A stretch of 64,000 bases of DNA. Origin: Oscillatoria sp. HE19RPO. GTDB lineage: Bacteria > Cyanobacteriota > Cyanobacteriia > Cyanobacteriales > Laspinemataceae. The notes below the pieces were generated by a model that was not told where the DNA came from, did no database searches, and worked only from the letters and a program-made list of their open reading frames with translations. This document shows, piece by piece, positions 5,338 to 31,210 of the stretch. Numbering within the stretch: position 1 is the stretch's first letter; every line of letters begins with the position of its first letter. Both the position numbers and the translations under genes were made by a program. The stretch covers positions 1-64,000 of the forward strand of contig NZ_JAMXOT010000158.1 of the NCBI RefSeq assembly GCF_024220515.1. Reading direction: 5' to 3'.

Positions 5338-6126
5338 CACAACGTCAGTCGTTCTCTTTCTATGTTTGTAGTAACGACTTCAGTCGTTCTCTTTCTATGT
5401 TTGTAGTAACGACTTCAGTCGTTTTCTTTCTATGTTTGTAGTAACGACTTCAGTCGTTCTCTTATGGGTATTCCAACAAATAAATCATCCTTGCTTTGAT
5501 GCGATCGCACCTAACAAGACTGTATTTAGCCCGCGCAGGCGGGCTTCGTCCTGTGAGCCTCCACCCTTTCCTAACGGAACGCTTCGCGAACAGGGTGCGG
5601 GGTTTTTGGATATTTTATTTTGTGGAGTTCCCTATCCAAGTTCGTAGGAACGACTTCAGTCGTTTCCGGATTAATCCAAACAACCCTCATCAAGTTTTAA
5701 CCCATCAAGTCCGGAAGTACAGTAGAGGTTAGAAACCGGGTTTCTTTACAGAATTTATAGCGATTAGCAACAAATCTGGGTCAGAAACCCGGTTTCTTGT
5801 CCCGGATAACGACTGAAGTCGGGACGTTGAACAAGAGAAGAGAACGACTGAAGTCGTTACTACTAACTCATACGGAATCCGGTTGTCAAAGGTCTGTAAA
5901 AACCTGCACCCTCAAGGGTGGGGCTATACGGACGAAGCGGTGCCTGCGCGGGCTAAAACCAAAAACCGACTTTTATCAACCGGATTTGGTATCAGATAAG
6001 AGAACGACTGAAGTCGTTACTACGAACTCAGATAAGAGAACGACTGAAGTCGTTACTACGAACTCAGATAAGAGAACGACTGAAGTCGTTACTACGAACA
6101 AAAGAAGAGAACGACTGAAGTCGTTA
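5338..6126. repeat. Repeat island: opposed arrays of a 16-base hairpin repeat
   Basis: The unit is AACGACTTCAGTCGTT, a 7-bp stem with a 2-base loop. The left array has copies at 5373, 5408 and 5443 (exact 35-base period, shared CTTTCTATGTTTGTAGT linker), a degenerate copy at 5341 and a single copy at 5649. The right array carries the complement at 5808 (partial), 5843, 6003, 6039, 6075 and 6110 (35-36 base period). The arrays are therefore inverted relative to each other. Between them lie other dispersed pieces: a GCCCGC hairpin near 5528 and paired GAAACCGGGTTTCTT-type palindromes near 5732-5797. Frames running through here are repeat translations, not genes. Confidence 0.9.
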
Positions 6127-6146
6127 CTACAAACATTTGGATGAAA

Positions 6147-6338
6147 TTACCGCAATCCTAACCAGGTAAAGAGGTCTTGATGGGTGAAGGCTTCGAGTAA
6201 GAGCAAGGCGAGAAAGGCTATCATGGCAACTCTGCCATTGATGCGTTCTGCATATTCAGTCCATCCAAAGGCCGGTTCAGGTTCGGCGGGTAAATCTTGA
6301 ACCGGGGGTTGAGTCGGGGTGATTTTTTGCTCAGTCAT
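6147..6338 (-). CDS. High-light-inducible protein (Hlip/CAB-like)
   Basis: This 63-residue protein has a proline-rich N-terminus and a single chlorophyll-binding helix with the CAB/ELIP/HLIP signature (ERINGRVAMIAF, residues about 31-42) continuing into LALLLLEAF. Such proteins sit in the thylakoid membrane, bind chlorophyll and carotenoid, and protect photosystems or chlorophyll-synthesis enzymes under excess light. The length is normal. The gene starts 5 bases after the sdhB-like stop on the same strand, without a clear ribosome-binding site of its own. Co-transcription and coupled translation are likely, which is an unusual pairing for an hli gene. Confidence 0.9.
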   Translation of the reverse strand: MTEQKITPTQPPVQDLPAEPEPAFGWTEYAERINGRVAMIAFLALLLLEAFTHQDLFTWLGLR

Positions 6339-6343
6339 CGGGG

Positions 6344-7450
6344 TTATTCTTTAGGAGCTTTTGAGGATTTAGATTCGAGTTCTTGAACGGATTCAATCAG
6401 CGATCGCACTTCTTTTGTGCCTTCGGACGGTTCAAAGGTTAAGGGCATTTTGCCCCGTTTAATCGATTGGAATCCCACCGGACCCAGGCTTAATAATCCT
6501 TTGATATCTCGGAAGAAATTACCGACGACCATCACGGCAAATTTACGTTCATCGATCCATCCGCCTTTTTTGACTAAATCAATTAAGACTTTGCGATGAC
6601 GGATGGAACGACTGGCTTGGTCATCGTTACGTTCGAGAATTTCGTCCTTAATTTTACCAATTTTATCCAGGGGTTCGACGCCCATTGGACAAACGGAATT
6701 ACAGTAAAAGCAGCGGGTGCAACTCCAGACTCCGGAGTTCGCTTGGTTATAGTTTTGTAAGCGGGATTCGGTTTGGTCGTCGCGATCGTCTTCCACCATG
6801 CGATAGGCTTTAGCGAGGGCATGGGGACCGACAAAGTTCGGATTGACTTCCACGGCGTTGCATTCAGAATAGCAGGCACCGCAGAGGATACAATTGCCGC
6901 TTTCCTCTAGGCGCGATCGCTCCTCTGGAGTTTGCAGAAATTCTCGTTCGGGAATTTTTCTGGCACTATTACTCACATAGGGATCAACGGCTTCGAGATT
7001 GTTCCAAAACCGCTGCATATCCACCACCAAATCTTTGACAACGGGCATATTTCCCATTGGCGCAATGGTAATTTCTGGAATGGCTCCCGGTGCAGTCGCC
7101 CTTGGGGGTGCGCCCGGTAAGGCATTGAGTGCCGCATTTTCGGTTTGTTCGCGATCGCGGGTGGCAGATTCGGTTTCGGTACTCTGTTCGGAGATTTGGT
7201 TCAATCGGGCCAGTTCAGCGCCGATATTCTCTTTACAGGCGAGGGCGGAACGGCCATTAATCCGCATTGAGCAACTGCCGCAGATGGTATTGCGGCAATT
7301 TTTACGAAAGGCGAGGGTTCCGTCTTGCTCCCATTTAATCCGATTCAGGCAATCGAGGATGGTATTCCCCGGTTCTACATCGAGTTGATAGGTCTGGATC
7401 CGAGGACCCGTATTTTGGCTTTGGCGAACGATTTTAAATAAAACTTGCAT
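6344..7450 (-). CDS. sdhB: Succinate dehydrogenase/fumarate reductase iron-sulfur subunit
   Basis: The protein joins membrane respiration to succinate oxidation. The N-terminal plant-type [2Fe-2S] domain shows CRNTICGSC and a later single Cys in ALACKEN. The C-terminal part has two clusters of cysteines, CILCGACYSEC and CTRCFYCNSVCP, for [4Fe-4S] and [3Fe-4S] centres. I start it at ATG 7450 (MQVLFKIVRQ, the usual family start). An in-frame extension reaches 7570 but has non-family sequence and no good ribosome-binding site. Compared with family norms it has a polar insertion between the two domains (about residues 88-145, Thr/Glu then Pro/Ala-rich). The hli gene follows directly. Confidence 0.9.
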   Translation of the reverse strand: MQVLFKIVRQSQNTGPRIQTYQLDVEPGNTILDCLNRIKWEQDGTLAFRKNCRNTICGSCSMRINGRSALACKENIGAELARLNQISEQSTETESATRDREQTENAALNALPGAPPRATAPGAIPEITIAPMGNMPVVKDLVVDMQRFWNNLEAVDPYVSNSARKIPEREFLQTPEERSRLEESGNCILCGACYSECNAVEVNPNFVGPHALAKAYRMVEDDRDDQTESRLQNYNQANSGVWSCTRCFYCNSVCPMGVEPLDKIGKIKDEILERNDDQASRSIRHRKVLIDLVKKGGWIDERKFAVMVVGNFFRDIKGLLSLGPVGFQSIKRGKMPLTFEPSEGTKEVRSLIESVQELESKSSKAPKE

Positions 7451-27964: not shown

Positions 27965-28720
27965 TTAAACCGCTAGGAATCGTTGAATGACTTCATTGCT
28001 GAGTTCTTCAGTGGAACCCGAGGCAACAATTCCTCCTTTTTGCATGGCATAATACCAATCGGCTTCTCGAACAAAATGCAAATGCTGTTCTACTAGCAGG
28101 ACTGAAATGCCTTTGGTTTGGATAATCCGACGCACTGCCGCTTCAATTTCTAAAATAATCGAAGGTTGGATGCCTTCCGTGGGTTCATCGAGGATGAGTA
28201 AGCGAGGATTTCCCATCAAGGCGCGGGCGATCGCTAGTTGTTGTTGTTGTCCCCCACTCAAATCTCCCCCCATCCGATTCAACATTTGGTTTAAAACCGG
28301 AAATAACTCGAAGATTTCATCAGAAATTTCCGGAGTTTTAGGCCGAGTGGGTCGCGCTTCTAAGCCCAAAATTAAATTTTCTTTTACCGTCAACCGGGGA
28401 ATAATTTCCCGCCCTTGGGGGACATAACCGATGCCCATTTTAGCACGGCGATCGCTCGATTTATCGATGATGGGTTGCCCCTCTAAATAGATTTGTCCCT
28501 TCCGAGGTTGCAGTAATCCCATAATCGTTTTTAACAGAGTCGTTTTACCGACCCCATTCCGGCCAATCAGGCAGACCATTTGTCCCGGGGATACGCTCAA
28601 ATCTACATCTCGTAAAATGTGACTTTCCCCATAATAAACATTCAACCCGGATACTTGTAGCATCCGATGGGATGCAGTGAGGGGGTTTTCTAATGCGATC
28701 GCTGGATTAGTTGGACTCAT
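27965..28720 (-). CDS. urtE: Urea ABC transporter ATP-binding protein UrtE
   Basis: This 251-residue LivF-type ATPase has Walker A GRNGVGKTT, the signature LSGGQQQQLAIARAL, Walker B LLILDEPTEG with IQPSI after it, and switch His in VEQHLHF. It energises high-affinity urea uptake together with UrtD. The start at ATG 28720 has an AGAGAG-type site upstream. A shorter start at 28663 (MLQVSGLNVYYGE) would match the usual family length. It is separated from urtD by about 1.7 kb holding an unrelated three-gene cassette, so it may be transcribed separately from urtABCD. Confidence 0.94.
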   Translation of the reverse strand: MSPTNPAIALENPLTASHRMLQVSGLNVYYGESHILRDVDLSVSPGQMVCLIGRNGVGKTTLLKTIMGLLQPRKGQIYLEGQPIIDKSSDRRAKMGIGYVPQGREIIPRLTVKENLILGLEARPTRPKTPEISDEIFELFPVLNQMLNRMGGDLSGGQQQQLAIARALMGNPRLLILDEPTEGIQPSIILEIEAAVRRIIQTKGISVLLVEQHLHFVREADWYYAMQKGGIVASGSTEELSNEVIQRFLAV

Positions 28721-28854
28721 TATGCTGCTCTCTAATTAATTTTTACATAAATAGAGACGCCTATCTTTGCGTCTCATGATTGATTAGCATCAAACAGAAA
28801 AATTGTCCCCCGATTTAAGTAAATAGAGTTTCATCCCTGGACTTTCGTATGACA

Positions 28855-29190
28855 TTAAATCAATTTAGTATCCATTTCAGGGGAGCGCAGTTTCGGTTTG
28901 ATCTGCCTCTGTTTTCTCTGGTTCATCTCCCCGGCTTGATCGCCTGATTTCTGGGTTAGTAGATGTTCTTCAGCACCTAATCCAGCACTGATATCGCACC
29001 CGGCTTCCTCTTCAACTTGAATCGCCCATTTTAACCGAGCTTCTCCATATTGATCGTTCATGGGTTGATCGCCGGGTTTCTGGGTTAGCGGATGTTCTTG
29101 AGGACCTAATCCAGCATTGATATCGCACCCCGCTTCCTCTTCAACTTGAATCGCCCATTTTAACCAGGCTTCTCCATATTGTTTATTCAC
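28855..29190 (-). CDS. Hypothetical protein made of a duplicated 43-residue unit
   Basis: I start it at GTG 29190, eight bases after AGGAG; an ATG at 29223 lies further upstream in frame without such a site. The 111-residue product has two near-identical units, each beginning N-K/D-QYGEA-W/R-LKWAIQVEEEAGCDI and running through GLG..EH.LTQK.GDQ, at an exact 129-base period. A basic tail (QRKQRQIKPKL) follows. Each unit has one cysteine in an acidic setting. I do not recognise a function. It lies 14 bases after the GNAT gene and forms the end of the cassette placed between urtD and urtE. Confidence 0.65.
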   Translation of the reverse strand: MNKQYGEAWLKWAIQVEEEAGCDINAGLGPQEHPLTQKPGDQPMNDQYGEARLKWAIQVEEEAGCDISAGLGAEEHLLTQKSGDQAGEMNQRKQRQIKPKLRSPEMDTKLI

Positions 29191-29236
29191 TAATTTTTCT
29201 CCTATTCTTGAGTTGAGAATCATTGGACTGAAATAA

Positions 29237-29806
29237 CTAGCTGAGTTTCACTATCTTTAAAGCCTCCTCTTTAGAAAATTCAAAATAGGTAAGATTTTCA
29301 TACCTTTCATCGGGGCCAAAATTAACCATGTTAAGCTGATTCTTGTAAAATCTTTCTGCTTCCGGTAAAGCGTGTAAACCGACCCTCCCTTTATATTCTA
29401 ACTCTATACTGCGTTGCACGGCAAACGTAATCATAGCTGTACCCACGCCCCGGTATTTAGGTGGGCTTTGGATAGAAGGACGATTCCAAGGAGCTGTTGC
29501 TAAATAATCCACATAAACTAAATTTTTGTTCCGTTCTAATCGAGAGCGGTGATAGTCAATTTCTAACAACATCAAACCTTCCGTCATAAGTTCGCACTCA
29601 ATGGCGTACCCTTCGTAATTAGCCAGCCTGCTTATTGCTTGATACTTTTTTACCCAATCCCAATGGCTATCTTCTTCACTAGAAGGTTGAAGCCTCGGAT
29701 TCCATTTTTGCTGAAAGTGGTTCAAATGAACAATAGATAAGGGGAGTAACTCTGCCTCTACAGCTTTTTGGTCTTGAACCCTAAATAATAATAGTTTTAC
29801 ACTCAC
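29237..29806 (-). CDS. GNAT-type N-acetyltransferase
   Basis: The 189-residue protein shows a GNAT core in its C-terminal half. Strand LVYVDYLATAPWN is followed by the acetyl-CoA loop YRGVGTAMITFAVQRS (the Q/RxxGxG/A element, about residues 123-130) and GLHALPEAERFYKNQLNM with the typical FYxxxG/M-like ending. The start is GTG 29806. The gene follows a ribbon-helix-helix-like gene by 39 bases, reminiscent of GNAT toxin-antitoxin pairs (TacT/AtaT with DUF1778 antitoxins). The substrate could be a tRNA, a protein or the small repeat protein encoded next. The assignment to an acetyltransferase is good; the biological role is inferred. Confidence 0.75.
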   Translation of the reverse strand: MSVKLLLFRVQDQKAVEAELLPLSIVHLNHFQQKWNPRLQPSSEEDSHWDWVKKYQAISRLANYEGYAIECELMTEGLMLLEIDYHRSRLERNKNLVYVDYLATAPWNRPSIQSPPKYRGVGTAMITFAVQRSIELEYKGRVGLHALPEAERFYKNQLNMVNFGPDERYENLTYFEFSKEEALKIVKLS

Positions 29807-29845
29807 TCTATGTCCCTCATGCTAGGTACATCCTCCCAGAAAGTT

Positions 29846-30055
29846 TTACAAAATCAAGACTTCAGATTTATCTTGTTCTAAAGATTCAAAATAAAGTTTA
29901 TCGCCTCGTTCCAGCCGTTCCTCAATTACTCCTATCATCCTTAATGCCTGACGCAGGACGGCAGATTTGCTCATTTCCTTTTTTTCACTCAAATAATTGA
30001 GCAATTCTAATTCAGTTACGGATAAATTTAAAGAAATTAAAGTTTTTTTATTCAA
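29846..30055 (-). CDS. Small ribbon-helix-helix-like regulator / antitoxin
   Basis: The 69-residue protein has a short N-terminal strand (TLISLNLSVTELELLNYL) followed by helices with KSAVLRQALRMIG, the usual ribbon-helix-helix pattern for DNA-binding dimers. The start is TTG 30055, with AAAGGAG eight bases upstream. The acidic C-terminal tail could neutralise a partner. The gene leads a three-gene unit with the GNAT and the repeat protein, and its promoter overlaps two 12-base direct repeats that could be its operator. Autoregulation is inferred from this layout. Confidence 0.65.
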   Translation of the reverse strand: MNKKTLISLNLSVTELELLNYLSEKKEMSKSAVLRQALRMIGVIEERLERGDKLYFESLEQDKSEVLIL

Positions 30056-30080
30056 CTTTTTTACTCCTTTCCATCACCTG

Positions 30081-30120
30081 ATATTTTTTATATCATATCT
30101 ATATATTTTTTATATGTCAA
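30081..30120 (-). promoter_or_regulatory. Sigma70-type promoter with two direct repeats (possible operator)
   Basis: On the minus strand TTGACA (30115-30120) is followed after exactly 17 bases by TATGAT (30092-30097). Two identical 12-base copies of ATATTTTTTATA lie at 30081-30092 and 30103-30114, 22 bases apart start to start. They flank and touch the -10 element, so a bound dimeric regulator could block initiation. The ribosome-binding site AAAGGAG follows. Confidence 0.7.
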
Positions 30121-30439: not shown

Positions 30440-31210
30440 TTATTCATGTTCCTCGGTACTGCCCAAATAGACTTGAATCACTTTGGGGTCATTTTGGACC
30501 TCTTCAATACTCCCTTCACAGAGGACCGAACCCTCATGCAATACCGTGACTTTGCGGGCAATTTGCCGCACGAATTCCATATCATGTTCAATCACAATAA
30601 TTGAATGACTTTGGGCCAAGGAAATTAGTAATTCTCCGGTGAGGGCGGTTTCTTCATCGGTCAATCCCGCCACGGGTTCATCAACTAATAATAAATCGGG
30701 AGATTGCGCCAGCAACATTCCAATTTCTAGCCATTGTTTTTCCCCGTGGGAGAGTAATCCCGAGGCAATATCCGCTTTAGCGACTAAACCGATGGTTTCC
30801 AGGAGGGTTTTGACCGTATTATGCTCCGATGCTGGAGTGGGTTTCAATAAGGTCTGAAATACATTTTTATTCCGATTGCAGGAAATTTCTAAATTTTCCC
30901 GAGGGGTAAGATTCAGGTAAACCCGTGGGGTTTGAAATTTGCGACCAATGCCAAATCGAGCGATTGTATCTTCAGAATATTTCCGCAGGTTTCGCCCTTT
31001 AAAGAAGACTTTTCCTAGGGTGGGTTTGACTTTTCCGGTAATCACATCTAAAAAGGTGGTTTTTCCGGCACCATTAGGACCAATAATCACCCGCAACTCT
31101 CCCGTATTCATGGTGAAAGTTAAGTTGTTCAGGGCATTAAATCCGTCAAAACTAACGGTTAAATTTTCAATTTCTAAGATGTTCTCGTTCACGGACTCTC
31201 TCTCTAACAC
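30440..31210 (-). CDS. urtD: Urea ABC transporter ATP-binding protein UrtD
   Basis: The 256-residue LivG-type ATPase carries Walker A GPNGAGKTTFLDVITG, an LSHGEKQWLEIGMLLA signature, Walker B LLLVDEPVAGLTDEE and switch His in IVIEHDMEFVR. With UrtE it drives urea import through UrtB/UrtC. The start is GTG 31210, with an alternative GTG six codons later. It follows urtC by 48 bases. LSHGEKQW in place of LSGG is the normal form for this branch. The C-terminus ends near IQVYLGSTEEHE. Confidence 0.95.
   Translation of the reverse strand: MLERESVNENILEIENLTVSFDGFNALNNLTFTMNTGELRVIIGPNGAGKTTFLDVITGKVKPTLGKVFFKGRNLRKYSEDTIARFGIGRKFQTPRVYLNLTPRENLEISCNRNKNVFQTLLKPTPASEHNTVKTLLETIGLVAKADIASGLLSHGEKQWLEIGMLLAQSPDLLLVDEPVAGLTDEETALTGELLISLAQSHSIIVIEHDMEFVRQIARKVTVLHEGSVLCEGSIEEVQNDPKVIQVYLGSTEEHE

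Follow-up and report, generated by a model that had tools for sequence, protein, structure and literature searches.

We lean towards reading the three-gene cassette between urtD and urtE of Oscillatoria sp. HE19RPO as one copy of a mobile module that spans two phyla, in which a gene for a GNAT-fold acetyltransferase adjoins a partner gene, and in which a short motif peptide of the partner restrains the acetyltransferase in the manner of a toxin-antitoxin (TA) system. Sequence comparisons show the module itself, the pairing of its two genes, the motif and its link to the presence of the GNAT, and insertion of the cassette; binding, inhibition, toxicity and autoregulation are inferred. The two-gene family (GNAT plus motif-bearing partner) has no name in Pfam, NCBIfam, PHROGs or PADLOC, and no description of the pairing was found in the literature searched.

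The cassette and its site between urtD and urtE

In the window (the whole stretch of DNA analysed, 64,000 nucleotides), the genes encoding a ribbon-helix-helix (RHH) regulator, the GNAT and a repeat-containing protein form three co-directed minus-strand open reading frames (ORFs) between urtD and urtE, with urt and ure genes as neighbors (Table 1). The promoter predicted 5' of the RHH gene was the best-scoring one of the region in a consensus scan, and the TTG start of the RHH gene at 30055 is preceded by AAAGGAGT. The ORFs, the flanks and the consensus promoter all agree with the original prediction, made from the sequence of this stretch, that three co-directed genes with a private promoter sit inside the urt operon. 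Terminator-like sites were, in total, not above chance (1 found versus 1.7 expected in shuffles), no structured RNA was matched in Rfam, and no repeat of the region 5' of the RHH gene was found elsewhere in the genome.

Because urtD and urtE are separated by ~100 bp, with no insert, in all seven other genomes of the genus, the cassette is, on this comparative evidence, an insertion between the two genes. The flanking urt DNA on both sides is 88-97% identical to that of the congeners, and divergence from them is limited to the intergenic stretch and the first ~15-18 codons of urtE. The UrtE N-terminus (window positions 28640-28720), which is unlike those of all congeners over ~15-18 residues, was apparently rewritten by the insertion, leaving a local scar.

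Table 1. Features of the cassette and its flanks (window coordinates)
Feature	Coordinates	Strand	Evidence
urtD, urea ABC transporter ATPase, upstream flank	30440..31210	-	TIGR03411 E=8e-112
Predicted sigma70-like promoter of cassette, TTGACA-N17-TATGAT	30092..30120	-	consensus scan, 11/12 matches
RHH (CopG-type) regulator, 69 aa, TTG start	29846..30055	-	Pfam RHH_1 E=0.002
GNAT-fold acetyltransferase, 189 aa, GTG start	29237..29806	-	AlphaFold2 model, alignment
Partner protein, 122 aa as listed, ATG start; two motif copies, body lost	28855..29223	-	
Partner repeat copy 1, motif EAWLKWAIQVEEEAGCDINAGLG + linker	29062..29189	-	repeat search, codon comparison
Partner repeat copy 2, motif EARLKWAIQVEEEAGCDISAGLG + linker	28933..29060	-	repeat search, codon comparison
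Terminator-like hairpin 3' of partner gene (weak)	28754..28775	-	7-pair stem, then T-rich tail
urtE, urea ABC transporter ATPase, downstream flank	27965..28720	-	TIGR03410 E=5e-99

The acetyltransferase

The window GNAT has no Pfam or NCBIfam match, and no solved relatives were found by sequence. Its AlphaFold2 model has a GNAT fold (pLDDT 86, pTM 0.84), which gave VIA Z scores of up to 13.7 in comparison with the PDB, and alignment places an acetyl-CoA loop (R-G-V-G-T-A) and an FY at the usual general-acid position, both conserved; the invariant positions of the alignment include W, Y, PWNR, G, H, FY and YFE. The fold and acetyl-CoA loop expected of a TacAT or AtaRT enzyme are therefore both present in the model, the PDB comparison and the alignment. 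The toxins TacT3, AtaT and KacT are among the best fold matches (Z 12-13), but since they tie with ordinary GNATs, the fold does not decide function.

The gene is patchily distributed. Within the class, 91 of 390 genomes carry it, many of them more than once, and decayed copies also occur; it is further present on 54 plasmid records, some of them proteobacterial. A phage origin was rejected, since no match was found among 50,697 phage records. The possibility, raised with the original prediction as one that would count against it, that the GNAT is a housekeeping enzyme (RimI, spermidine acetyltransferase, PaiA and the like) was dismissed on the basis of its presence in only 4 of 99 relatives and none of seven congeners, together with its fixed partner gene. 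A 378-aa frame in G108 (L207), considered as a GNAT-partner fusion that would prove contact, proved to be an N-terminal extension with no partner fused.

A motif-bearing partner accompanies the GNAT

A partner gene lies beside the GNAT gene, nearly always directly downstream, at 92 of 94 cyanobacterial GNAT places, a count that includes one locus with the partner past a transposase-like insertion (L013), one with a divergent partner (L004) and one frameshifted pair (L062). A second scan, whose 80 loci overlap the 94 places of the first, found the partner at 79/80 loci, and at 80/80 with L198 added on re-inspection. Gaps between the two genes are mostly -4 to +40 nt, and 89 of the 92 assigned downstream ORFs form one homology cluster. 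The full RHH-GNAT-partner composition also recurs, in L006, L011, L013, L025, L127 and 15 proteobacterial plasmids, which bears out the co-occurrence by which the original prediction was to be judged. GNATs of a divergent subclade (L098, L099) have no adjoining partner, and the few further exceptions are decayed loci. This subclade belongs to the Nostocales; the GNAT gene of L098 (2010-2603) lies upstream of a gene for a dynamin-like GTPase, and that of L099 does not. In L013 (19-1941), the transposase-like insertion cuts the GNAT gene, and the RHH and partner genes remain on either side.

The partners are acidic (median pI 4.7) and have an acidic motif in common, a short N-terminal stretch with the pattern W..A..[IV]E.E.G[CG]D[IV].AG. 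The Cys that had been taken to be fixed is present in 23 of 44 partners and replaced by Gly in 19, and a catalytic or fixed Cys is excluded by the latter. The motif is modular and occurs on differing bodies, namely helical domains 70-200 residues long, DUF1508 and XRE-type helix-turn-helix (HTH) domains, and in some long-type partners it is worn to an E...[IV].AG core or less. In a structure model of one partner, the helical body is confident and the motif region poorly ordered, as expected for a peptide that folds upon binding; no significant PDB match was found for the partner fold. Distances among the GNATs correlate with those among the motifs (Mantel r=0.70; the highest of 2000 permutations gave 0.25), and the pairs therefore travel together. 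Searched with a DNA pattern of the Cys form, the motif was found beyond these loci in a few solo copies, along with chance ankyrin or out-of-frame hits; the solo motif proteins (L115, L116, L117 and L122) count against reading the motif as a clamp on the GNAT.

Among individual partners, that of L024 (2043-2408) has a DUF1508 (YegP-like) body (Pfam E=1e-4) and that of L021 (1145-1435) an unrelated body with a weak DUF2811 match. A RiPP precursor was set aside as an identity for the partners, which reach 170-240 aa, have folded, conserved bodies and carry the motif at the N-terminus. Many short-type partners are followed by a fourth gene (L006, 2372-2887; L011, L014, L023, L025, L027). The C-terminal half of the L006 product matches the PADLOC candidate PDC-S19 (E=9e-10), and the L014 product has weak winged-HTH matches. 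As for cyanobacterial defense islands, L100 lies beside a methyltransferase/DrmD region, and five other loci examined showed no clear link.

In Pseudomonadota the motif sits on a CapH-like repressor

The gene order RHH-GNAT-HTH, with RHH directly upstream of GNAT, is found in 15 of 15 Pseudomonadota plasmid loci, and an ImmA/IrrE protease gene comes next in 14 of them (none is listed within the stretch shown for L103). At 12 of these 15 loci an operon of immune type lies divergently to it, namely multiubiquitin-ThiF-DUF6527 at eight, CBASS at three and ThiF/JAB at one; L214 has a ubiquitin-like operon downstream, and L215 a Cas9 gene. The XRE HTH of L102 matches HTH_19 (E=2e-18), and the HTH proteins and proteases are CapH-like (PADLOC capH E=2e-4) and CapP-like (capP E=5e-14), respectively. 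CapH and CapP are known regulators of CBASS and Bub operons, and CapW or CapH plus CapP were found in 219 of 544 Bub operons, in a paper that does not mention GNAT, acetylation or ribbon-helix-helix (PMC13373217). The Pseudomonadota loci share with those systems a CapH-like HTH and a CapP-like protease divergent from CBASS or multiubiquitin operons, but differ in that both genes come after an RHH-GNAT pair, and in that the HTH bears an extra, GNAT-linked N-terminal motif. Through these loci, the RHH-GNAT pair is connected with the CapH/CapP type of control over CBASS and ubiquitin-like systems of bacteria. In the window cassette we found neither an XRE HTH, nor an ImmA/IrrE protease, nor an adjacent immune operon, all of which occur among the Pseudomonadota relatives.

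A profile for which only cyanobacterial motifs were used was run on the Pseudomonadota HTH proteins and on 626 control ORFs. The N-termini of 11 of 14 GNAT-linked HTH proteins outscored all of the controls, and the profile placed the motif at residues 7-12 of most of them, with a consistent two-residue deletion; the HTH proteins of L104, L215 and L216 scored more weakly, and in these the motif is visible by eye. The motif was not found in the HTH proteins of four GNAT-less ImmA/IrrE pairs (L223, L224, L225 and the second pair of L214), including that of L225, which adjoins a multiubiquitin operon yet lacks the motif. Because GNAT-linked HTH proteins carry the motif and those of GNAT-less pairs do not, the motif tracks the GNAT and not the HTH, although the GNAT-less controls number only four.

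These loci also recall the three-component Xre-COG2856-toxin systems predicted on plasmids, including pCAR3, in a 2009 survey by Makarova that also predicted GNAT-RHH and GNAT-Xre pairs (PMC2701414). In those systems, a protease, an Xre repressor/antitoxin and a toxin were predicted to share one operon; the toxins named there with the COG2856-Xre proteins are RelE and PIN, whereas the operon here encodes a GNAT and has a motif that occurs in both phyla.

How the partner may act on the GNAT

We propose that the acidic N-terminal peptide of the partner is a GNAT-recognition element that most likely binds and restrains the enzyme, such that the pair would act as a GNAT toxin and an antitoxin of an unusual kind. 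A TA-like pair is the best fit because of the operon structure, plasmid carriage, spread in copy number and decay. Among the features that speak against it are the lack of an adjoining partner in the divergent GNAT subclade (L098, L099) and the gene order: the partner gene follows the GNAT gene, whereas known GNAT antitoxins precede their enzyme. In Pseudomonadota, the antitoxin-like peptide would be fused to a CapH-like repressor, and the CapP-like ImmA/IrrE protease, by cutting this repressor, could derepress the neighboring defense operon and free the GNAT at the same time. If a portable acidic N-terminal peptide does neutralize a GNAT, a single repressor cut upon DNA damage would both turn on an immune operon and set an effector free.

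A broader proposal, which we put forward tentatively, is that a switch consisting of a GNAT plus a docking peptide is common to Cyanobacteriota and Pseudomonadota. A portable acidic peptide of ~20 residues would clamp the acetyltransferase; where it is fused to CapH, one cut would both induce an immune operon and unleash the GNAT, and the window would hold the most reduced form, with two tandem clamps.

Less probable, in our view, is that the GNAT is a regulator and no toxin, docking on the motif of the partner and acetylating either a third protein or the body of the partner (in Pseudomonadota, the CapH-like repressor), and so switching neighboring defense genes. In favor of this explanation, the GNAT is tightly linked to CapH/CapP-like pairs that adjoin CBASS and multiubiquitin operons, and the repressor bears the motif only when a GNAT is present. 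However, no acceptor Lys, Ser or Thr is conserved in the motif, the bodies of cyanobacterial partners are mostly helical and of no known DNA-binding kind, and at the window locus there is neither a defense operon to control nor a partner body. Regulatory acetylation thus fits the Pseudomonadota loci but not body-less or helical partners, whereas a motif that serves the GNAT would be a feature general to all forms, the two-motif protein of the window included.

The window partner is a reduced form

That the third gene encodes two near-identical 43-residue units, as originally described, is confirmed by two 128-nt copies that are 89% identical, with a period of 129 nt (43 codons), far beyond chance. 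Both a Shine-Dalgarno sequence and comparison with the L127 partner favor the GTG at 29190 as the start of the protein, which would then have 111 aa, each 43-codon unit opening at a start-like codon. Both copies have the Cys, Arg replaces the conserved Trp of the motif in copy 2, and the body is replaced by a short tail.

The closest relative of the cassette, L127, is from an uncultured cyanobacterium, and its GNAT and RHH proteins are 67% and 75% identical to those of the window. It too lies between urtD and urtE, which are 79-82% identical between window and L127. The L127 partner (5546-5860) combines a single motif with a complete body of 91 residues, and the window partner is thus a derived, reduced form in which the 5' motif unit was duplicated and the body lost; the two-motif form is peculiar to the window locus, and relatives have one motif and a body. 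Because the urtD-urtE gap of L127 also holds, at 5891-6800, two small high-light-inducible-like (Hlip-like) genes together with a fragment that looks like the beginning of urtE, this site seems to take up DNA repeatedly, and the site shared by window and L127 may reflect either common descent or repeated insertion.

With Arg for Trp in copy 2 and the body gone, the window copy could be decaying. We consider it unlikely, albeit compatible with our explanation of the family, that the copy is a remnant with no present function, its GNAT and RHH genes open and its partner broken. Loss of the body, duplication of the motif unit, the Trp-to-Arg change, a majority of nonsynonymous differences between the copies and absence of the cassette from congeners would all suit a remnant; weighed against them are a GNAT and an RHH that are intact with all conserved residues kept, an intact promoter and Shine-Dalgarno sequence, and a motif core preserved in both copies.

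The RHH regulator and known GNAT systems

The window RHH falls just short of the curated Pfam RHH_1 cut-off, which its homologs in L006, L102 and L127 pass, and it is homologous to the proteobacterial RHHs (phmmer E=1e-19 to 6e-14). Neither it nor its homologs match DUF1778 in Pfam, only RHH_1/CopG. Because an RHH gene lies upstream of the GNAT in just 5 of 94 cyanobacterial loci and the partner is nearly always present, the RHH is an optional member of the module and the motif partner is the core partner of the GNAT. This reverses the original prediction, in which the third gene was an extra beside an RHH-GNAT pair; a role as inhibitor or second antitoxin, which had also been suggested for its product, is the likeliest one. 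The RHH would repress the promoter of its own cassette.

The cassette resembles the GNAT-RHH type II TA systems (TacAT, AtaRT, KacAT, GmvAT) in its GNAT fold, small upstream RHH gene, plasmid carriage, several copies per genome and small acidic partner. It differs from them in having no DUF1778 antitoxin, an optional RHH, a constant partner that is encoded downstream and has an N-terminal motif, and a GNAT fold no closer to theirs than to those of other GNATs. Because it lacks DUF1778 and most of its relatives lack an RHH, the cassette is not a member of TacAT/AtaRT; the likeness to TacT/AtaT first noted is limited to the order RHH then GNAT, the RHH being of CopG type with no DUF1778 match. 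That the RHH nevertheless acts as antitoxin in a TacAT/AtaRT-like pair, with the third gene encoding an accessory inhibitor or substrate, as originally read, is improbable: its gene lies 39 bp upstream of that of the GNAT, as in TacAT, and the RHH-GNAT order is kept in the 15 Pseudomonadota loci, but it has only ~24 residues beyond the RHH fold, no DUF1778 match, and a place in few of the cyanobacterial loci where the motif partner is almost always found. A cyanobacterial GNAT gene followed by a hypothetical gene, alike by description, is slr1906/slr1907, a putative TA pair of Synechocystis 6803 (PMC4963859).
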